Below, piece after piece: positions 45,530 to 54,249 of a DNA stretch of 64,000 nucleotides. The stretch spans positions 558,001-622,000 of the forward strand of contig NZ_BMTW01000001.1 in assembly GCF_014649875.1 (NCBI RefSeq), read 5' to 3'. The notes under the pieces are model-generated. The model did no database searches and had not been told where the DNA came from. It was given only the letters and a program-made list of their open reading frames with translations. Positions within the stretch are counted from its first letter, which is position 1. Every line of letters begins with the position of its first letter. Made by a program: the position numbers and the translations under genes. This DNA comes from Streptomyces rubiginosohelvolus (lineage in GTDB: Bacteria; Actinomycetota; Actinomycetes; Streptomycetales; Streptomycetaceae).

Positions 45530-46453
45530 TCAGTGAGGGCGGTCGCCCGCGATGGCCACGCGCTCCGCGACCCGGCGGTACGGGGCGTAGTCGTTGACCG
45601 CGTAGTGCTGGGTGGCCCGGTTGTCCCAGAACGCGACGTCGCCCGCCCGCCAGGAGAACCGCACCTGGAACTCCGGAGCGTGCGCCTGCTGGAACAGCAG
45701 GCGCAGCAGCCGGTCGCTCTCCTCCTGCGCGAAACCGACGATCCGGGTGGTGAACGACGCGTTGACGAAGATCGTGCGGCGGCCGGTGACCGGGTGGCGG
45801 CGCACCACCGGGTGCTCGACCGGCGGGAACTCCTCCTGGTGCGCCGCCAGCCGCTCCGGCGGGTAGAAGCGGGCGAACCCGGGGATGAAGTCGTGCACCG
45901 CCCGCGCCCCCTCGATGCGCTCCTTCACCTCATCGGGCAGGTTGTCGTACGCGGCCGCCATGTCCGCCCACAGCGTGTCGCCGCCCACCGGAGGCACCTC
46001 GCGCAGTTGGAGGACCGCGCCGAGGGCGGGGCGCTCGCGGAAGGTGACGTCGGTGTGCCAGACGTTCTCGAAGGTGGGCACGGTGGTGCGGTCGAGGCGG
46101 GCCACCTCGGGGTCGTCGCCGGTGGCGAGGAGCGGGTTGGTCTCCAGCTCGCCCCAGAGCCCGGCGAACGCCCGCTGCTGCTGCGAGGTGAGGTGCTGGT
46201 CGCGGAAGAACAGCACCTTCCACTCCAGCAGCGCCCGGTCCAGCTCGGCGCGCACGTCCGCCTCCAGCGGGCGGGACAGGTCGACGCCGTGGATCTCCGC
46301 GCCGATGACCCGGCCGAGCGGGACCAGGCGGAGGCGCTCGTACGGGCGGTCGGTCCAGCCCTCCGGGACCCGGCGCAGCTCGCGCGGGCCCTCGTACAGG
46401 CCGTCGGCGGGGATGCGGTGGTCGCGCAGGACGGGGGTCGTCGCGGTGGTCAT
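45530..46453 (-). CDS. TauD/TfdA-family Fe(II)/2-oxoglutarate dioxygenase
   Basis: 307 aa. The iron triad is the His and Asp of WHTDVTFRERPALG plus a distal His in WDNRATQHYAVNDY, with Arg in YRRVAERV for 2-oxoglutarate. ALLEWKVLFFRDQHLT and LGAVLQLREVPPVGGDTLWADM are family hallmarks. It probably oxidises an organosulfonate or alkyl sulfate, releasing sulfite or sulfate. It is last in the sulfonate-transport operon, 39 bp after the ATPase gene. Confidence 0.92.
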   Translation of the reverse strand: MTTATTPVLRDHRIPADGLYEGPRELRRVPEGWTDRPYERLRLVPLGRVIGAEIHGVDLSRPLEADVRAELDRALLEWKVLFFRDQHLTSQQQRAFAGLWGELETNPLLATGDDPEVARLDRTTVPTFENVWHTDVTFRERPALGAVLQLREVPPVGGDTLWADMAAAYDNLPDEVKERIEGARAVHDFIPGFARFYPPERLAAHQEEFPPVEHPVVRRHPVTGRRTIFVNASFTTRIVGFAQEESDRLLRLLFQQAHAPEFQVRFSWRAGDVAFWDNRATQHYAVNDYAPYRRVAERVAIAGDRPH

Positions 46454-46492: not shown

Positions 46493-47311
46493 TCAGCTGG
46501 CCGCTTCGCGGACCGCAGTGCCGATCTCGGCGCGCAGCGCGGCGTACGCGGGCAGCCCGCGCAGTTCGTCGGGGTCGGCGCCGGTCCGGGGCAGGTCGAT
46601 GGGGACGTCCAGGGCGACGGTCCCCGGACGGTTGGTGAGGACGATCGCGCGGGTGCCGAGGAAGACCGCCTCGTCGACGCTGTGGGTGACGAAGACCGAC
46701 GTGGTCCCGGTCTCGGCGCTGACCGTGCGCAGGTCCTCCTGGAGCCGCTCCCGGGTCAGCGCGTCCAGCGCGGCGAACGGCTCGTCGAGCAGCAGGAGCC
46801 GCTTGCCGCCCGCCAGGGCTCGGGCGATGGCGACGCGCTGCTGCTGGCCGCCGGAGATCTGCCAGACGCGGCGGCCCGCCGTGTCCGCGAGCCCGACTCG
46901 CGCCAGCAGCCCCGCGATCCGCTCCGGCCGTTCGGCCCGGGGAACCCCCGCGTACTTCAGGGCGAGGCCGATGTTGTCGCCGACCGTCCGCCAGGGGAAG
47001 AGGCGCGGCTGCTGGAACACGATGCCCGCCTGGCTTCCCGGGTCCGGGCGCTCGCCGAACACCTCGACCGCGCCCTCGGTGGCCTGCTCGAAGCCCGCGA
47101 TCAGCCGCAGCAGGGTGCTCTTGCCGCAGCCGGAGGGGCCGACGAGGACCAGGAACTCACCGGCCGGGATCTCCAGGGAGAGCGGGCCGAGGGCGGTGAC
47201 CGCGTCCGCGCCCCGGCCGTAGGAGTGCCGGACGCCGGTCACGGAGACGACGGGGGCGCTCCCCGGCGCCTTGGCGGTCCGGGTCTTCTCGGTGTCAGGG
47301 GCTGACGGCAT
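46493..47311 (-). CDS. Sulfonate/taurine ABC transporter ATPase (SsuB/TauB type)
   Basis: 272 aa. Walker A is GPSGCGKSTLLRLIAGFE, signature SGGQQQRVAIARAL, Walker B LLLLDEPFAALD, and H-loop VFVTHSVDEAVFL. The FQQPRLFPWRTV stretch is typical of the nitrate/sulfonate/taurine importer group. The start overlaps the end of the substrate-binding protein gene by 17 bp, so production is coupled. It powers uptake with the permease at 48402-49292. Confidence 0.94.
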   Translation of the reverse strand: MPSAPDTEKTRTAKAPGSAPVVSVTGVRHSYGRGADAVTALGPLSLEIPAGEFLVLVGPSGCGKSTLLRLIAGFEQATEGAVEVFGERPDPGSQAGIVFQQPRLFPWRTVGDNIGLALKYAGVPRAERPERIAGLLARVGLADTAGRRVWQISGGQQQRVAIARALAGGKRLLLLDEPFAALDALTRERLQEDLRTVSAETGTTSVFVTHSVDEAVFLGTRAIVLTNRPGTVALDVPIDLPRTGADPDELRGLPAYAALRAEIGTAVREAAS

Positions 47312-48347
47312 CGCTGAGCCCTTCCGCGTGGATGGCCTTGCGCAGGGTCTCGATGTCCGGCGCGGAGTCGATCTGCTTCTGGTCGACGAGGAACTGCGCG
47401 GCGCTGTGCAGGTTGTCCGCCAGGCCGCCGGCCTTGCCGGGGGTGCCGAGCCACTTCGCGTCCGCCTGCTCGGCGGGCTTGAGGAAGATGCCCTGCTTCA
47501 GCTGGGAGCCCGCCTCGGCCGGGCTGATGCCGAGCTGCTTGCCCACGGCGGCCGACGCGGCGTCCGGGTCGTCGTGGATCAGGTCGAGTGCCTGGGCCTG
47601 GGCCTTGCGCCAGGCGGGCAGCACGTCGGGGTGGGCCTTGAGGAAGCGGGTGGCGGCGACCCCGAGGTCGAGGGTGGGCTTGCCGTCCGCGGCGAGTTCA
47701 CGGCTGGAGACGATGACCTTGCCGGTCTTCTTCAGCTCCTCCAGCGTCGGCAGCCAGACGTACGTGGCGTCGATGTCGCCGCGCGTCCAGGCGGCCAGGA
47801 TGTCCTGCGGCTCCAGGTCGAGGAGCTGGACCTTCGAGGCGTCCACCCCGGCCCGGTCGAGGGCGGCGAGCAGGCTGTAGTGGGAGGTGGAGCTGAAGGG
47901 GGTGGCGACCTTCTTGCCCTCCAGGTCCTTCACCGAGGAGATCTTGGACCCGTTACGGGCGACGAGCGCCTCGTTGTCCCCGGCGACGTCGAGCACCCAG
48001 GTGACCTCGTACGGGATGTTCAGCGGCGCGGAGAGCCCCCGGGCCACCGGGCTGGAGCCGATGGCCGCGAGGTCCACGGACCCGGCGACGAACGCGGTGT
48101 TGATGCTGGCCCCGGAGTCGAACTTGGTCCACTTGATGTCGTAGCCGGGCAGCGCCTTCTCCAGCCAGCCCTTCTCCTTGACGATCAGGTCGCCGCTGGG
48201 GAACGCCTGGTAGGCGATGCGTATGGTCTTGCCGCCGTCGCCCCCGTCGCCGGAGCCGCCGCCCTGGCCGCACGCCGTCACCGCCAGCAGGGTGCCGAGG
48301 GTCACGGCGAGGAAGGTGAGGCGGAGCGGGCCGCGTGTTCGGGGCAT
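47295..48347 (-). CDS. Sulfonate ABC transporter substrate-binding lipoprotein (SsuA type)
   Basis: 350 aa. A lipoprotein signal ends in LLAVTACGQ, with Cys as lipidation site. The mature part is a type II periplasmic-binding fold (IRIAYQAFPSGDLIVKEKGWLEKALPGYDIKW to LAAWTRGDIDATYVWLPTLEELKK). It should capture aliphatic sulfonates or taurine at the outer face of the membrane. It lies between permease and ATPase genes. Confidence 0.94.
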   Translation of the reverse strand: MPRTRGPLRLTFLAVTLGTLLAVTACGQGGGSGDGGDGGKTIRIAYQAFPSGDLIVKEKGWLEKALPGYDIKWTKFDSGASINTAFVAGSVDLAAIGSSPVARGLSAPLNIPYEVTWVLDVAGDNEALVARNGSKISSVKDLEGKKVATPFSSTSHYSLLAALDRAGVDASKVQLLDLEPQDILAAWTRGDIDATYVWLPTLEELKKTGKVIVSSRELAADGKPTLDLGVAATRFLKAHPDVLPAWRKAQAQALDLIHDDPDAASAAVGKQLGISPAEAGSQLKQGIFLKPAEQADAKWLGTPGKAGGLADNLHSAAQFLVDQKQIDSAPDIETLRKAIHAEGLSDAVSP

Positions 48348-48401: not shown

Positions 48402-49292
48402 TTACGCGTGGCTGCGCCACGGGGCGAGGCGGTCGGCCAGCAGGCGCAGGGCCGCGTCGATGAGCAGGCCGGAGATGCCGATGGCGAAGAGGCCGAGCAC
48501 GACGGTGTCGGACTGGTTGTAGCGCTGGGCGTCCCGGATCAGGCCGCCGATCCCCGGTAGTCCGTTGACGGTCTCGGCGGCGACGACGGAGGAGTACGCG
48601 ATGCCGAAGGCGAGCCGGACGCCGACGAGGATCTCGGGCAGCGCGGAGGGAAGCACGACGGAGGTGACGACCTGTCCGCGCCGGGCCCCGATCGCCCGGG
48701 CCGCCTCGACCAGGGCCGTCGGCGCGGACGCCACGGCGGACGCGGTGGCGACGGCGACCGGCGGCATCGCGGCGATGGCCAGCAGCCACAGCTTGGGCGC
48801 CTCGTCGATGCCGAACCAGATGATCAGCAGGCTGAAGTAGGCGAGCGGGGGCAGGGTCCGCAGGAACGCCACAGCGGGCTCCAGCACCACCCGTACCCAC
48901 GGCAGCGTCCCCATGAGGACGCCGAGCACGAGGCCCGCGGCCACCCCCGCACCGGCCCCGATGAAGATCCGGCGGAGGCTGATCCCGAGGTGTTCGATCA
49001 GGGTGTGGCCCTGGTAGCCCCGGACGCCGTCGTGCGTGCCGGAGGTCTCCAGCAGCGCCCGCCACACGGCGGCGGGCGAGGGCACCAGGACCGGCGACCA
49101 CAGCTGGAGCGCGGTCACCAGCTGCCAGCCGCCGAGCAGGACGGCGAGCGCGAGGACGCGCAGCCCGATCCGGCGCAGCAGGGCGGCGCGTTCGGGACGG
49201 GCGCGGCGGCCGTCGCCCTTGTTCGGCGGGCCCGGGGGCACGGGAGCGGCGGCTTCGGCGGTCCGTTCCCGCAGGGACGGGGAGGTCGGCAT
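48402..49292 (-). CDS. Sulfonate ABC transporter permease (SsuC/TauC type)
   Basis: 296 aa from the ATG at 49292, with GGAGA 6-7 bp upstream. Six membrane helices. The EAA loop is VEAARAIGARRGQVVTSVVLPSALPEILVGVRLAFGIA. The N-terminus (about 45 residues) is a Pro/Arg-rich cytoplasmic extension. First structural gene of the operon, 213 bp after a Cys-rich leader peptide. Confidence 0.94.
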   Translation of the reverse strand: MPTSPSLRERTAEAAAPVPPGPPNKGDGRRARPERAALLRRIGLRVLALAVLLGGWQLVTALQLWSPVLVPSPAAVWRALLETSGTHDGVRGYQGHTLIEHLGISLRRIFIGAGAGVAAGLVLGVLMGTLPWVRVVLEPAVAFLRTLPPLAYFSLLIIWFGIDEAPKLWLLAIAAMPPVAVATASAVASAPTALVEAARAIGARRGQVVTSVVLPSALPEILVGVRLAFGIAYSSVVAAETVNGLPGIGGLIRDAQRYNQSDTVVLGLFAIGISGLLIDAALRLLADRLAPWRSHA

Positions 49293-49465
49293 GAAGGGGT
49301 CTCCGGGGTCATGGAGCCTCGCCGGACCCGCGGGAGGCGGCAGGCCGGGAGGACACACGCGGGGGCGGCGCTGGGAACGCGACGATGCGAGGGGCGGGAC
49401 CCGGAGGGGATCAGGCGCGGAAGGCGTGGATAGCGCTCAAGGTGCTCATACCGGGGACGCGCGCA

Positions 49466-49506
49466 GGCATCACGTGGGCATCGCGAAGGATGCCGCGGCC
49501 GGCATC
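49466..49506 (-). promoter_or_regulatory. Attenuator-like alternative hairpins after the Cys leader
   Basis: In the minus-strand RNA the order is GAUGCC (49506-49501), GGCAUC (49494-49489), GAUGCC (49482-49477), GAUGCC (49471-49466). The single GGCAUC can pair with any one of the three GAUGCC copies, so the hairpins exclude each other. The first GAUGCC overlaps the leader's stop codon, so a ribosome paused at the final Cys codon would cover it. Confidence 0.6.
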
Positions 49507-49576
49507 AACAGGATGCGCTGGAGACGCGGCAGAGATCGATGTGGAGGCACTCCACCAGAAAACGATCGACTGTCAC
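49505..49576 (-). CDS. Cys-rich leader peptide of the sulfonate operon (23 aa)
   Basis: A GTG at 49576 opens a 23-codon frame that ends TGC-CGC-GTC-TCC-AGC-GCA-TCC-TGT-TGA. The product has three Cys (positions 10, 16, 23) and the block HIDLCRVSSASC, which matches the actinobacterial 'putative leader peptide' class (H-x-DL-x-R-x-SSAxC) found before sulfur-assimilation genes. No Shine-Dalgarno is visible. TAGAAC ends 7 bases before the GTG, so the transcript may be leaderless. Inferred role: translation stalls when Cys-tRNA is scarce and this changes downstream RNA folding. Confidence 0.8.
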   Translation of the reverse strand: MTVDRFLVECLHIDLCRVSSASC

Positions 49577-49804
49577 GGGCGCTGTTCTAGCACAGCGTTT
49601 CGCGCCCGCACCAGGATCCGCCAGGGAGTGAGACACCTCGGGACCGGTCCGTGGACGGGCCCGGTGACCTGTGGCCGGGGCCGTGGACCCGTCGGCGGGC
49701 GGGCGCACACACGTCTCGAACTGATCTTCACTCCTCTTCAACCTTTTCGGCACACGGGTGCTCTGTAACGGGTGGGAGTCGAGGAGAGCGAGAGAGGAGG
49801 GCGG

Positions 49805-50338
49805 ATGCCGGCAGGGGCTCAGCCCGCCATGGCGGACGACGAGCGCGCCGCGTTCGAGGCGTACGCCAGGACCGGGCAGCGCCGCCTGTACCGGACGGCC
49901 TACCTGCTGTGCGGAGACACCGAGGGTGCGCAGGACCTGACGCAGACGACGCTCGCCAAGCTGTTCCAGCACTGGCGCAGGGCGAGCCGGGCGGACAACC
50001 TCGACGCCTACGCCAAGACCGTGCTGGTGCGCACCTTCGTGGCCGAACGCCGCCGCTCCGTACGGGATCTGCTCGCCCACAACCGCAACGCGCCCCGCCC
50101 GCAGCCCAATCCGGCGCCGGGCGCCGACCTCCGGGTCACCCTGCTGGCCCTCCTCGCCGAACTCCCGCCCCGGGCAAGGGCGATGGTCGTCCTGCGCTAC
50201 TGGGACGACCTGAGCGTGGAGACCGTGGCGTCGCTGCTGCGGTGCAGCGAGTCCACGGTGAAGAGCCAGTGCTCGCGTTCGCTCGTCCGCCTGCGCGCCC
50301 GGATGGGCGACGTCCAGCTCTACTCCACCGGAAGCTGA
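49805..50338 (+). CDS. SigE-family ECF RNA polymerase sigma factor
   Basis: 177 aa from the ATG at 49805, with GAGGAGG upstream. Region 2 is EAYARTGQRRLYRTAYLLCGDTEGAQDLTQTTLAKLFQHWRR; region 4 is LPPRARAMVVLRYWDDLSVETVASLLRCSESTVKSQCSRSL. This matches the streptomycete SigE-like subfamily in which the sigma gene is followed by a membrane protein gene. That gene, 9 bp downstream, has one membrane segment and may restrain the sigma factor. The promoters controlled are unknown. Confidence 0.93.
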   Translation: MPAGAQPAMADDERAAFEAYARTGQRRLYRTAYLLCGDTEGAQDLTQTTLAKLFQHWRRASRADNLDAYAKTVLVRTFVAERRRSVRDLLAHNRNAPRPQPNPAPGADLRVTLLALLAELPPRARAMVVLRYWDDLSVETVASLLRCSESTVKSQCSRSLVRLRARMGDVQLYSTGS

Positions 50339-50347
50339 GGGCCGGTC

Positions 50348-51286
50348 ATGACCCCTGAACCGTACGAGCACCTGCCGCGCCGCACGCCTGACGAAGAGCC
50401 GGTCCGGGACGAGGAGTTGTTCCGGGAGGCCCTGCACCGGACGGTCGGCGCCCTGTCCCTCCAGCCCGATCTGGTGTCCGACGCCGTCCGGGAGGGTCAC
50501 CGGCGGCGGGCCAGGAGCCGGGGGTACACGGTCGCGGGCGCGTTCGTCGCGGTGACCGCGCTGACCCTGGGCCTCTCCGTGCTCGGCCCCCGGCTGCTGT
50601 CGGGCCCGGAACCCGTGTCGCCCGCCGGACCGTCCCTCTCCCTGCCCGCCTCCCCGCCCACCCCGTCCCCCCGACGTACGGAGCAACCCCCCGACATGCC
50701 GAGCCCCACCGCCACCCCCGTGCCGACGGAGTCCGCGGCCGTGCCGCCCGCTCCCCCCGGGCCGCCCGCACCCTCCCTGTCGGTCCCGCCCGGGCTCGGC
50801 CCCGAGGAGGCCCAGCGCCTGGAGGCGTTCCGGCAGCAGGCGGCCCGGGCCCTGGACGCGCTGCTGCCCGCGTCGGTCGGGGACGTCCGGCCGGCCGACG
50901 ACGACCCGGGGAGCTATGCGGGGCGGCGCGGCGGTGTCGTGCACGCCGTCCGGCTTTCGGTGGTCCCGGATCCGGGGAGCCCCGAGCCCGCCTGCCGCGA
51001 CATCCCGGAGAAGGGGCTGACCTGCGTGGCCCTCACCCTGGACGACGGCACCCCCGCCCGGGCCTACCGGCAGGCCGTCGCGGACCGGGCGGTCACCGAG
51101 GTCTCCCTCCAGTACCGGTCCGGCCGCAGCACGGTGGCACTGTCGGTGTCGCCCGCGCGGTCCGGGGCGGGCGGCACGCCCGTCACCGTCGGGGACCTCG
51201 TCCGGGTCGCCGAGAGCCCGCGGTTCCGGGAGCTGATCGCGTACGCCGACGAGAACCCGGTGGCGTGGGGCGGGGCCGCCTCGTGA
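50348..51286 (+). CDS. Single-pass membrane protein behind the sigma factor (possible anti-sigma)
   Basis: 312 aa. The cytoplasmic N-terminus (about 1-59) includes EPVRDEELF at residues 17-25. One membrane helix follows (about 60-80, TVAGAFVAVTALTLGLSVLG), then a Pro/Ser/Thr-rich stalk and a C-terminal extracytoplasmic domain (GPEEAQRLEAFRQQAARALDALLP to ENPVAWGGAAS). It has no HxxxCxxC zinc motif of classical ZAS anti-sigma factors. Position and topology fit an anti-sigma factor, but homology is not recognised. Its stop overlaps the next gene (GTGA). Confidence 0.8.
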   Translation: MTPEPYEHLPRRTPDEEPVRDEELFREALHRTVGALSLQPDLVSDAVREGHRRRARSRGYTVAGAFVAVTALTLGLSVLGPRLLSGPEPVSPAGPSLSLPASPPTPSPRRTEQPPDMPSPTATPVPTESAAVPPAPPGPPAPSLSVPPGLGPEEAQRLEAFRQQAARALDALLPASVGDVRPADDDPGSYAGRRGGVVHAVRLSVVPDPGSPEPACRDIPEKGLTCVALTLDDGTPARAYRQAVADRAVTEVSLQYRSGRSTVALSVSPARSGAGGTPVTVGDLVRVAESPRFRELIAYADENPVAWGGAAS

Positions 51287-53049: not shown

Positions 53050-54249
53050 TCAGTTGGCGTTGAGGAGCTTCAGCTCCGGGTGGGCCGTGCCGCCCTCGAT
53101 CGCGGTGGACGAGATGTGCGAGACGACGCGCTCGTCGACCGGGTCGTTCGCCGGGTCGTCGTGCACGACGAGGTGCTCGTAGGTCGTGGCGCGCTGCGCG
53201 GGGACCCGGTCCGCCTTGCGGATCAGGTCGATGATCTCCAGCCGGTTGGAGCGGTGCTTGGCCCCGGCCGAGGAGACGACGTTCTCCTCCAGCATGATCG
53301 AGCCGAGGTCGTCCGCGCCGTAGTGCAGCGACAGCTGGCCGACCTCCTTGCCGGTGGTGAGCCAGGAGCCCTGGATGTGGGCGACGTTGTCGAGGAAGAG
53401 CCGGGCGATGGAGATCATCCGCAGGTACTCGAAGAGCGTGGCCTGCGTGCGGCCCTTCAGCTTGTTGTTCTCCGGCTGGTAGGTGTACGGGATGAAGGCG
53501 CGGAAGCCGCCCGTACGGTCCTGGACGTCCCGGATCATCCTCAGGTGCTCGATGCGCTCGGCGTTGGTCTCGCCGGTGCCCATCAGCATGGTGGACGTCG
53601 ACTCGACGCCGAGGCCGTGCGCGATCTCCATGATCTCCAGCCACCGCTCGCCGGACTCCTTGAGCGGCGCGATGGCGGTGCGCGGCCGGGCGGGCAGCAG
53701 CTCGGCGCCCGCACCGGCGAAGGAGTCGAGCCCGGCGGCGTGGATGCGGCTGATGGCCTCCTCGGCGGAGACCTTCGAGATGCGGGCCATGTGCTCGATC
53801 TCGGAGGCGCCGAGCGAGTGGATGACCAGTTGCGGGTACGCCTTCTTGATCGCGGAGAAGTGCTCCTCGTAGTACTCCACGCCGAAGTCCGGGTGGTGGC
53901 CGCCCTGGAACATGATCTGGGTGCCGCCCAGCTCCACGGTCTCCGCGCAGCGGCGCAGGATGTCGTCGAGGTCGCGGGTCCAGCCCTTGTCGGTGGCCTT
54001 GGGCGGGGCGTAGAAGGCGCAGAACTTGCAGGCCGTCACGCACACGTTGGTGTAGTTGATGTTGCGCTCGATGATGTACGTCGCGATGTGTTCCGTACCG
54101 GCGTAGCGGCGGCGGCGTACGGCGTCGGCGGCGGCGCCCAGTGCGTGCAGCGGCGCGGACCGGTAGAGGTCGAGCGCCTCCTCCGGGGTGATCCGACCGC
54201 CTTCGGCGGCTCGGTCGAGGACGGGCTGAAGGTCGGCCTTCTCGGTCAC
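53050..54249 (-). CDS. mqnC: Cyclic dehypoxanthinyl futalosine synthase
   Basis: 399 aa, GTG start with AAAGGTGAC upstream. The radical-SAM cluster motif is CVTACKFCAF (C-x3-C-x2-C). Other family marks are ELGGTQIMFQGGHHPDFGVEYYEE, GTGETNAERIEHL and the C-terminal SIMLEENVVSSAGAKHR. It closes the ring of dehypoxanthine futalosine in the futalosine (Mqn) route to menaquinone. The operon includes the truncated amidohydrolase-like gene. It lies one gene away from mqnA. Confidence 0.96.
   Translation of the reverse strand: MTEKADLQPVLDRAAEGGRITPEEALDLYRSAPLHALGAAADAVRRRRYAGTEHIATYIIERNINYTNVCVTACKFCAFYAPPKATDKGWTRDLDDILRRCAETVELGGTQIMFQGGHHPDFGVEYYEEHFSAIKKAYPQLVIHSLGASEIEHMARISKVSAEEAISRIHAAGLDSFAGAGAELLPARPRTAIAPLKESGERWLEIMEIAHGLGVESTSTMLMGTGETNAERIEHLRMIRDVQDRTGGFRAFIPYTYQPENNKLKGRTQATLFEYLRMISIARLFLDNVAHIQGSWLTTGKEVGQLSLHYGADDLGSIMLEENVVSSAGAKHRSNRLEIIDLIRKADRVPAQRATTYEHLVVHDDPANDPVDERVVSHISSTAIEGGTAHPELKLLNAN

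Follow-up and report, generated by a model that had tools for sequence, protein, structure and literature searches.

The window, the whole stretch of 64,000 nucleotides of Streptomyces rubiginosohelvolus DNA analysed here (contig NZ_BMTW01000001.1, positions 558,001–622,000), carries on its minus strand a taurine-type operon preceded by a short leader peptide gene. The first structural gene of the operon encodes a TauC-like ABC transporter permease (48402–49292; PF00528) and has a GGAG Shine–Dalgarno (SD) sequence at 49301–49304, which is also present upstream of the start in 14 listed loci. The other genes encode a TauA-like substrate-binding lipoprotein (47295–48347; the best match is TIGR01729 with 236 bits, below the cut-off of 304), a TauB-like ABC transporter ATPase (46493–47311; PF00005, with the best match, PRK11248, below its cut-off) and a TauD-like dioxygenase (45530–46453; PF02668, 1.8e-66). 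A reading made from the sequence alone had placed a sulfonate transporter operon downstream of the leader; the domain matches confirm this and specify the operon as taurine-type, with taurine or some other sulfonate as the probable substrate. The gene of a SigE-family ECF sigma factor (49772–50338; TIGR02983) lies divergently from the operon on the plus strand, and after it comes a gene (50348–51286) whose product has no Pfam match. The minus strand also encodes cyclic dehypoxanthinyl futalosine synthase MqnC at 53050–54249, with a TIGR03699 match above the cut-off.

The leader peptide gene occupies positions 49576–49505 of the minus strand and consists of a GTG start codon at 49576, 23 codons in all, and a UGA stop codon (49507–49505). 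The peptide, VTVDRFLVECLHIDLCRVSSASC, has cysteine residues at codons 10, 16 and 23, Cys23 directly preceding the stop. The 23-codon frame and its three Cys codons, the last of them before the stop, had been described from the sequence with the strand left unstated, and all of this holds for the minus strand. At the cysteine usage of six window genes (9 of 1812 codons), at least three Cys codons among 22 are expected with p = 1.8e-4.

Orthologs of the leader were collected in several ways. A permease search returned 80 loci, 19 of which contained a leader according to a motif scan; the matches in L058, L078 and L088 were judged spurious. A DNA search yielded further leader orthologs, and a search by sequence pattern across 392 Streptomyces genomes found matches in 16, including G021, whose leader is a different one. 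After removal of copies, 40 pattern-bearing rows gave 23 distinct leader sequences, which were aligned; five divergent leaders (L050, L054, L086, L087 and L092) were omitted from the alignment, and the permease tree covers 18 of the 23 leader loci. Cys16, the terminal Cys and a DLCR motif are conserved in all 23 orthologs and Cys10 is found in 17; synonymous codon changes are numerous across the frame. The larger set of orthologs ends with SSASC, SSACC or SASCC and a smaller set of seven with VTSCSC or VTGCSC, while L044 (VTSASC) stands separately. The first gene after the leader is tauC in 19 of the 23 orthologs. In the other four (L006, L011, L131 and L132), tauC is absent or a remnant, the leader is kept and tauD is the next gene; in three of these loci tauB is absent, broken or shortened, being apparently in two pieces in L011. 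The leaders retained before tauD may point to recent deletions of transporter genes.

A −10-like box, TAGAAC (within TGTGCTAGAAC), is located at 49584–49589 on the minus strand, 7 nt upstream of the leader GTG. This box does not have the last T of the TAnnnT consensus given for S. lividans in PMC8079986 and is a weak promoter match; a sigma-70 consensus scan of 49250–49700 found no sites. All 23 orthologs have a TGTGYTA-N4 box 6–7 nt 5′ of the GTG, and four SD-like strings sought upstream of the GTG are absent from all of them. Since the −10-like box so closely precedes the start codon and SD-like strings are missing there, the alignment suggests that the leader mRNA is leaderless, with transcription starting at or beside the GTG. 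A GTCTCA motif about 55 nt 5′ of the leader start (49629–49634 on the minus strand of the window) recurs in many clade-A orthologs and is a possible regulator site.

The window peptide matches the NCBIfam model NF042934, ‘putative leader peptide’ (cis_reg_atten), with 25.8 bits (E 5.8e-6), below the cut-off of 27. Of nine orthologs scanned with this model, two score above the cut-off, L003 (28.0) and L042 (29.7), and the other seven below it, so the window leader is to be regarded as close kin of NF042934 by orthology and not by the cut-off. It resembles the family in its C-terminal end (profile positions 7–19 of 19), in its length and in its place before a sulfur gene. The earlier attribution to a known class of actinobacterial Cys leaders located before sulfur genes is thus upheld by an NF042934-type motif and a terminal Cys, both of which all 23 orthologs keep; the class itself is already known, and the taurine-operon leader joins it. 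Judging from these features, the leader is very probably a cysteine-sensing regulator of the operon.

Nine other leaders were found in the same genome, seven above the NF042934 cut-off and two weaker. The first genes after them encode ThiS, cysteine dioxygenase, a nitrite/sulfite reductase, an SfnG-like dimethylsulfone monooxygenase, an SsuC-like permease, a flavin reductase, a rhodanese-type sulfurtransferase, a ROK protein and a dicarboxylate-type symporter; six of the nine leaders stand before clear sulfur-metabolism genes. The leader before the ROK-family (PF00480) gene (L118, G000:C2:61135-61188) fits a 2014 paper whose title ties PF00480 proteins to sulfur metabolism via the regulation of expression. 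Leaders of the NF042934 class are present in 13 of 13 Streptomyces genomes, with 3–10 per genome, and in 45 of 60 Actinomycete genomes.

The RNA at and after the leader stop codon contains one GGCAUC (49494–49489, minus strand) and three copies of its complement, GAUGCC, on the same strand. The first copy (49506–49501) overlaps the stop codon and is the 5′ arm of a first stem, which shares the GGCAUC arm with a conserved hairpin formed with the second copy (49482–49477), the 3′ arm; in the window this hairpin begins 10 nt past the stop. The third copy (49471–49466) is not conserved as a GGCAUC partner. Folded alone, the first stem has 7 bp, a 4-nt loop and −11.3 kcal/mol, and the second hairpin has 6 bp and −9.1 kcal/mol. 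Chance readily yields a perfect stem of at least seven pairs within 60 nt, which 179 of 2000 dinucleotide shuffles and 9.1% of the 2132 60-nt windows in the 64 kb contain; a 6-mer accompanied by three reverse-complement copies within 60 nt is rare (none of 2000 shuffles; 0.14% of windows). No pair of GATGCC and GGCATC occurs in the inspected stretches of other leaders of the genome; L119 has GGCATC without GATGCC. The minimum free energy of the leader RNA is not lower than that of shuffled sequences (z −0.93 and −0.25), and neither proposed hairpin is part of the minimum free energy structures. An RNAalifold helix joining codons 17–18 to GAUGC of the third copy was set aside, as clade B would form mostly G-U pairs and the alignment is unsure there. 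The only Rfam match up to E 5 was to a CRISPR repeat model and scored far below the gathering threshold, and such an identity was rejected.

The sequence-only reading had proposed that the two hairpins are mutually exclusive and that a ribosome pausing at the terminal Cys codon selects the second. Its elements, namely the single GGCAUC, the three GAUGCC copies and the 7-bp stem, are all present in the window, but the first GAUGCC occurs in exact letters in only 8 of 23 orthologs. Six of the eight carriers can be placed on the tree, where a single shallow group of eight rows holds them all; 2 changes are required, and the branching is open. The first stem has no covariation in the 23 orthologs (score 0.014, below the shuffles, every one of which is as high); its inner GCC:GGC pairs are nevertheless present in 95.7% of the cells of the alignment. 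In 21 of 23 orthologs, all except L009 and L044, the second hairpin lies some 10 nt past the stop and, folded alone, has −8.8 to −9.5 kcal/mol. Of its cells, 92% are paired, and its covariation score of 0.181 was attained by none of 500 shuffles, which gave 0.061. Only one pair accounts for this covariation; it is U-A in 15 sequences, G-C in seven and C-G in one, since the count of double-change pairs (1) was reached by 480 of 500 shuffles and that of further pair types (3) by 476; another of the six pairs is broken in eight sequences. Pairing of GGCAUC with the third copy did not covary above controls. Hence the expected covariation of GGCAUC and GAUGCC was found for the second hairpin, at one pair, and neither for the stem at the stop codon nor for the third copy, and the two exclusive hairpins are not both conserved. 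The proposed switch is partly supported by the alignment, one half of it being conserved and the other restricted to near relatives. The full stop-codon stem is read as an addition of the S. griseus-like group that may sharpen the switch.

The start of the second hairpin, 10 nt after the stop, adjoins the predicted edge of a ribosome held at the stop or at the terminal Cys codon; a stalled ribosome covers up to 12 nt according to PMC4833913. A thermodynamic model of the window raises the probability of the second hairpin from 0.04 to 0.96 when the ribosome is stalled at Cys23. Over 21 sequences, the mean probability in the same model is 0.13 for free RNA, 0.29 with a Cys-stalled ribosome and 0.40 with a ribosome at the stop, so that the idea of a pause switching the hairpins is borne out by the window but only weakly by the set (0.13 to 0.29). 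The stall model, as well as the ribosome-binding-site (RBS) duplex test described below, took in 21 of the 23 orthologs, among which tauC is intact in 18 and a remnant in L006, while L131 and L132 have tauD as the first gene; L009 and L011, for which no gene start was found, were left out.

One more complementarity is seen. At the codons of Cys16 and Arg17 the leader has the segment UGCCGCG (49525–49531, minus strand), which is complementary to a post-stop CGCGGCA and is a possible, unproven extra competitor. The five-pair core, UGCCG:CGGCA, is complementary in 23 of 23 orthologs, four pairs being invariant and one having a single U-G. Its covariation is not above shuffles (score 0.018, 500 of 500 as high), and the helix cannot be judged by covariation because the core hardly varies.

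The untranslated spacer at 49293–49465 on the minus strand is rich in C and poor in G and is a candidate entry site for Rho; a scan of 49250–49700 found no intrinsic-terminator-like sites. The skew, (C−G)/(C+G), is positive in the spacers of all 23 orthologs. Over the first 200 nt it is 0.248 in the window, a value reached by 0.66% of the 200-nt windows in the 64 kb; in ten of the 23 orthologs, mostly of clade B, it is weaker, with 4–20% of windows as high. The property extends to the class: the mean post-stop skew of 66 class leaders (L111–L119 and L143–L199), which are the best-scoring matches with loci returned and not a random sample, is 0.238, with 64 positive values and two of 0.00; 58 of these leaders were folded. 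The controls, which were ordinary gene flanks rather than known 5′ UTRs and from which leader-like regions were excluded, gave 0.022 ahead of 252 other gene starts (p about 1e-24) and 0.054 downstream of 272 gene stops (p about 1e-19); both p values are too small because many leaders are orthologs of one another. Another control set of 139 regions takes in the window's own tau region and perhaps those of four loci. Within the genome studied, the skew is positive (0.16–0.32) for the tau leader and for all nine other leaders, which precede nine different genes. In the class, the skew begins at the stop codon, rising from values between −0.05 and 0.08 in the eight preceding 25-nt bins to 0.29 in the first bin after it, and falls to 0.13 at +125 to +150. 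In the tau orthologs it is 0.08 in the first 25 nt, which are largely the hairpin region, and then 0.15, 0.26 and 0.32. Such a skew is as expected for Rho-dependent attenuation and is suggestive only; it is not specific to Rho, since the cysteine dioxygenase leaders, which have an RBS lock as described below, also have a strong excess of C over G. A point against gating of Rho by the ribosome is that, of the roughly 200-nt spacer, a stalled ribosome would cover only some 12 nt.

The best of several options considered is a Cys-responsive stalling leader with Rho as the effector, and the probability of the whole chain is put at about 0.45; the leaderless start, the stalling, the part of Rho and the direction of control are what we infer within it. 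Transcription would start at or beside the GTG, and the peptide would be read from a leaderless mRNA. With ample Cys-tRNA, the ribosome would reach the UGA and depart, and the vacated C-rich, G-poor RNA would become accessible to Rho, which would stop transcription before the tau genes. With scarce Cys-tRNA, the ribosome would halt at the Cys codons, chiefly at Cys23, covering the stop codon and about 12 nt, and the hairpin of GGCAUC with the second GAUGCC would form directly ahead of it. The hairpin together with the halted ribosome would make Rho loading poorer, and the taurine operon would be expressed and supply sulfur.

Control could instead act on translation, in the manner of the mycobacterial polycysteine leaders: the end of the leader would pair with the RBS of tauC and a stalled ribosome would free it. 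Translation attenuation of such a kind is cited for M. smegmatis, and in the window codons 18–19 (GUCUCC) can pair with GGAGAC, the modelled accessibility of the SD sequence rising from 0.16 to 0.41 on stalling. This case partly carries a slight rise over the 21 sequences (Wilcoxon p 0.046), in which the mean changes only from 0.104 to 0.122. The duplexes between the leader end and the RBS in the 21 tau orthologs do not surpass those of shuffles (mean z 0.11, with no value under −2; for the 18 orthologs with intact tauC, a hand-made average of the individual values is about 0.03). The same test, which took in 61 of the 66 class leaders, detected such pairing among nine cysteine dioxygenase leaders (mean z −2.8, seven of nine below −2) and thus can reveal the mechanism, which it does not do for tau; the 52 other class leaders gave a mean z of −0.51, with five below −2. 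The signal of the cysteine dioxygenase leaders arises because their last codons (CCGUCCUG in seven of nine) mirror the RBS (CAGGACGG). The spacer between the leader and tauC, moreover, varies in length from about 140 to 390 nt. The leader persists before tauD where tauC has been lost, which fits control at the transcript level better than control of the RBS of one gene. Release of the tauC RBS is accordingly considered unlikely. The nine cysteine dioxygenase leaders comprise the one before the gene L112:1646-2218 (tested with PF05995) and those of L153, L154, L161–L163 and L168–L170, where the proteins have similar starts; the lock, clear as it is by the duplex test, is odd for an enzyme that destroys cysteine.

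A switch in which the position of the ribosome decides whether GGCAUC pairs with the GAUGCC at the stop or with a later copy is a less probable explanation still. All its elements are in the window, the triple GAUGCC exceeds chance, and both the modelled response to stalling and the near-universal inner pairs of the first stem agree with it; yet the GAUGCC at the stop is found in 8 of 23 orthologs, its stem covaries less than shuffles, and the scan and the duplex test tied neither hairpin to a terminator or an RBS. Slightly lower again is the standing of a classical attenuator of alternating segments, where UGCCG of Cys16–Arg17 would pair with the post-stop CGGCA in competition with the conserved hairpin. 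The core complementarity in every ortholog, and the change on both sides in L044 that extends the helix, argue for it, but the covariation score is equalled by all shuffles, the leader side is fixed by coding and no terminator-like site lies in 49250–49700. It is very improbable that a chance ORF or relic with no regulatory role is all that is seen here, as the frame, the terminal Cys, the promoter spacing and the class motif are kept in 23 orthologs despite many synonymous changes.

Canestrari and co-workers reportedly described in 2020 mycobacterial polycysteine leaderless short ORFs of the Ms4527A and Ms5788A families. These ORFs are similar to the window leader in having Cys codons near the stop, a probable leaderless start and a place before sulfur operons, and there is a weak profile similarity; unlike them, the window leader has no polycysteine run, and sequestration of the RBS is unsupported in the tau duplex test. 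In the Rho-dependent attenuation of the E. coli tnaC type, a ribosome held at the end of the leader shields a Rho site near the stop codon. The mechanism proposed for the window is alike in the shielding of a Rho site by the ribosome, Rho being putative here. However, tnaC uses an arrest peptide and a bound amino acid, whereas the signal in the window would be scarcity of Cys-tRNA.

Leaders of cys operons in Mycobacterium, Propionibacterium and Bifidobacterium were compared by Seliverstov et al. in 2005 (PMC1262725). As in the window, they have Cys codons near the stop and no conserved terminator, and polyY candidate Rho sites were suggested there. In contrast to the present case, the Rho idea relied on non-conserved motifs, and the passages compared contain no Streptomyces cys leader or sulfonate operon; the same passages leave open the route from stalling at Cys codons to expression. 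PMC13236596 and PMC9031893 both cite attenuation in response to cysteine by leaders of this kind in M. smegmatis. A re-annotation of S. lividans lists eight leader peptides, none of which is called cysteine-dependent in the part consulted (PMC8079986). Searches of the open-licence literature, which were not taurine-specific, found no description of the taurine leader.

The class-wide composition signal is the most interesting by-product of the analysis. It is conceivable, though rather doubtful as a whole, that Actinomycete Cys leaders share a C-rich, G-poor Rho entry region that begins at the stop codon, and that a ribosome at the terminal Cys codon would gate Rho before many sulfur operons; to this arrangement, the taurine operon would add a conserved hairpin and the S. 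griseus-like group a competing stem. The comparison thereby separates two possible routes by which such leaders may act: an RBS lock before cysteine dioxygenase and, on the other hand, a class-wide change of composition at the stop codon, which points to Rho.
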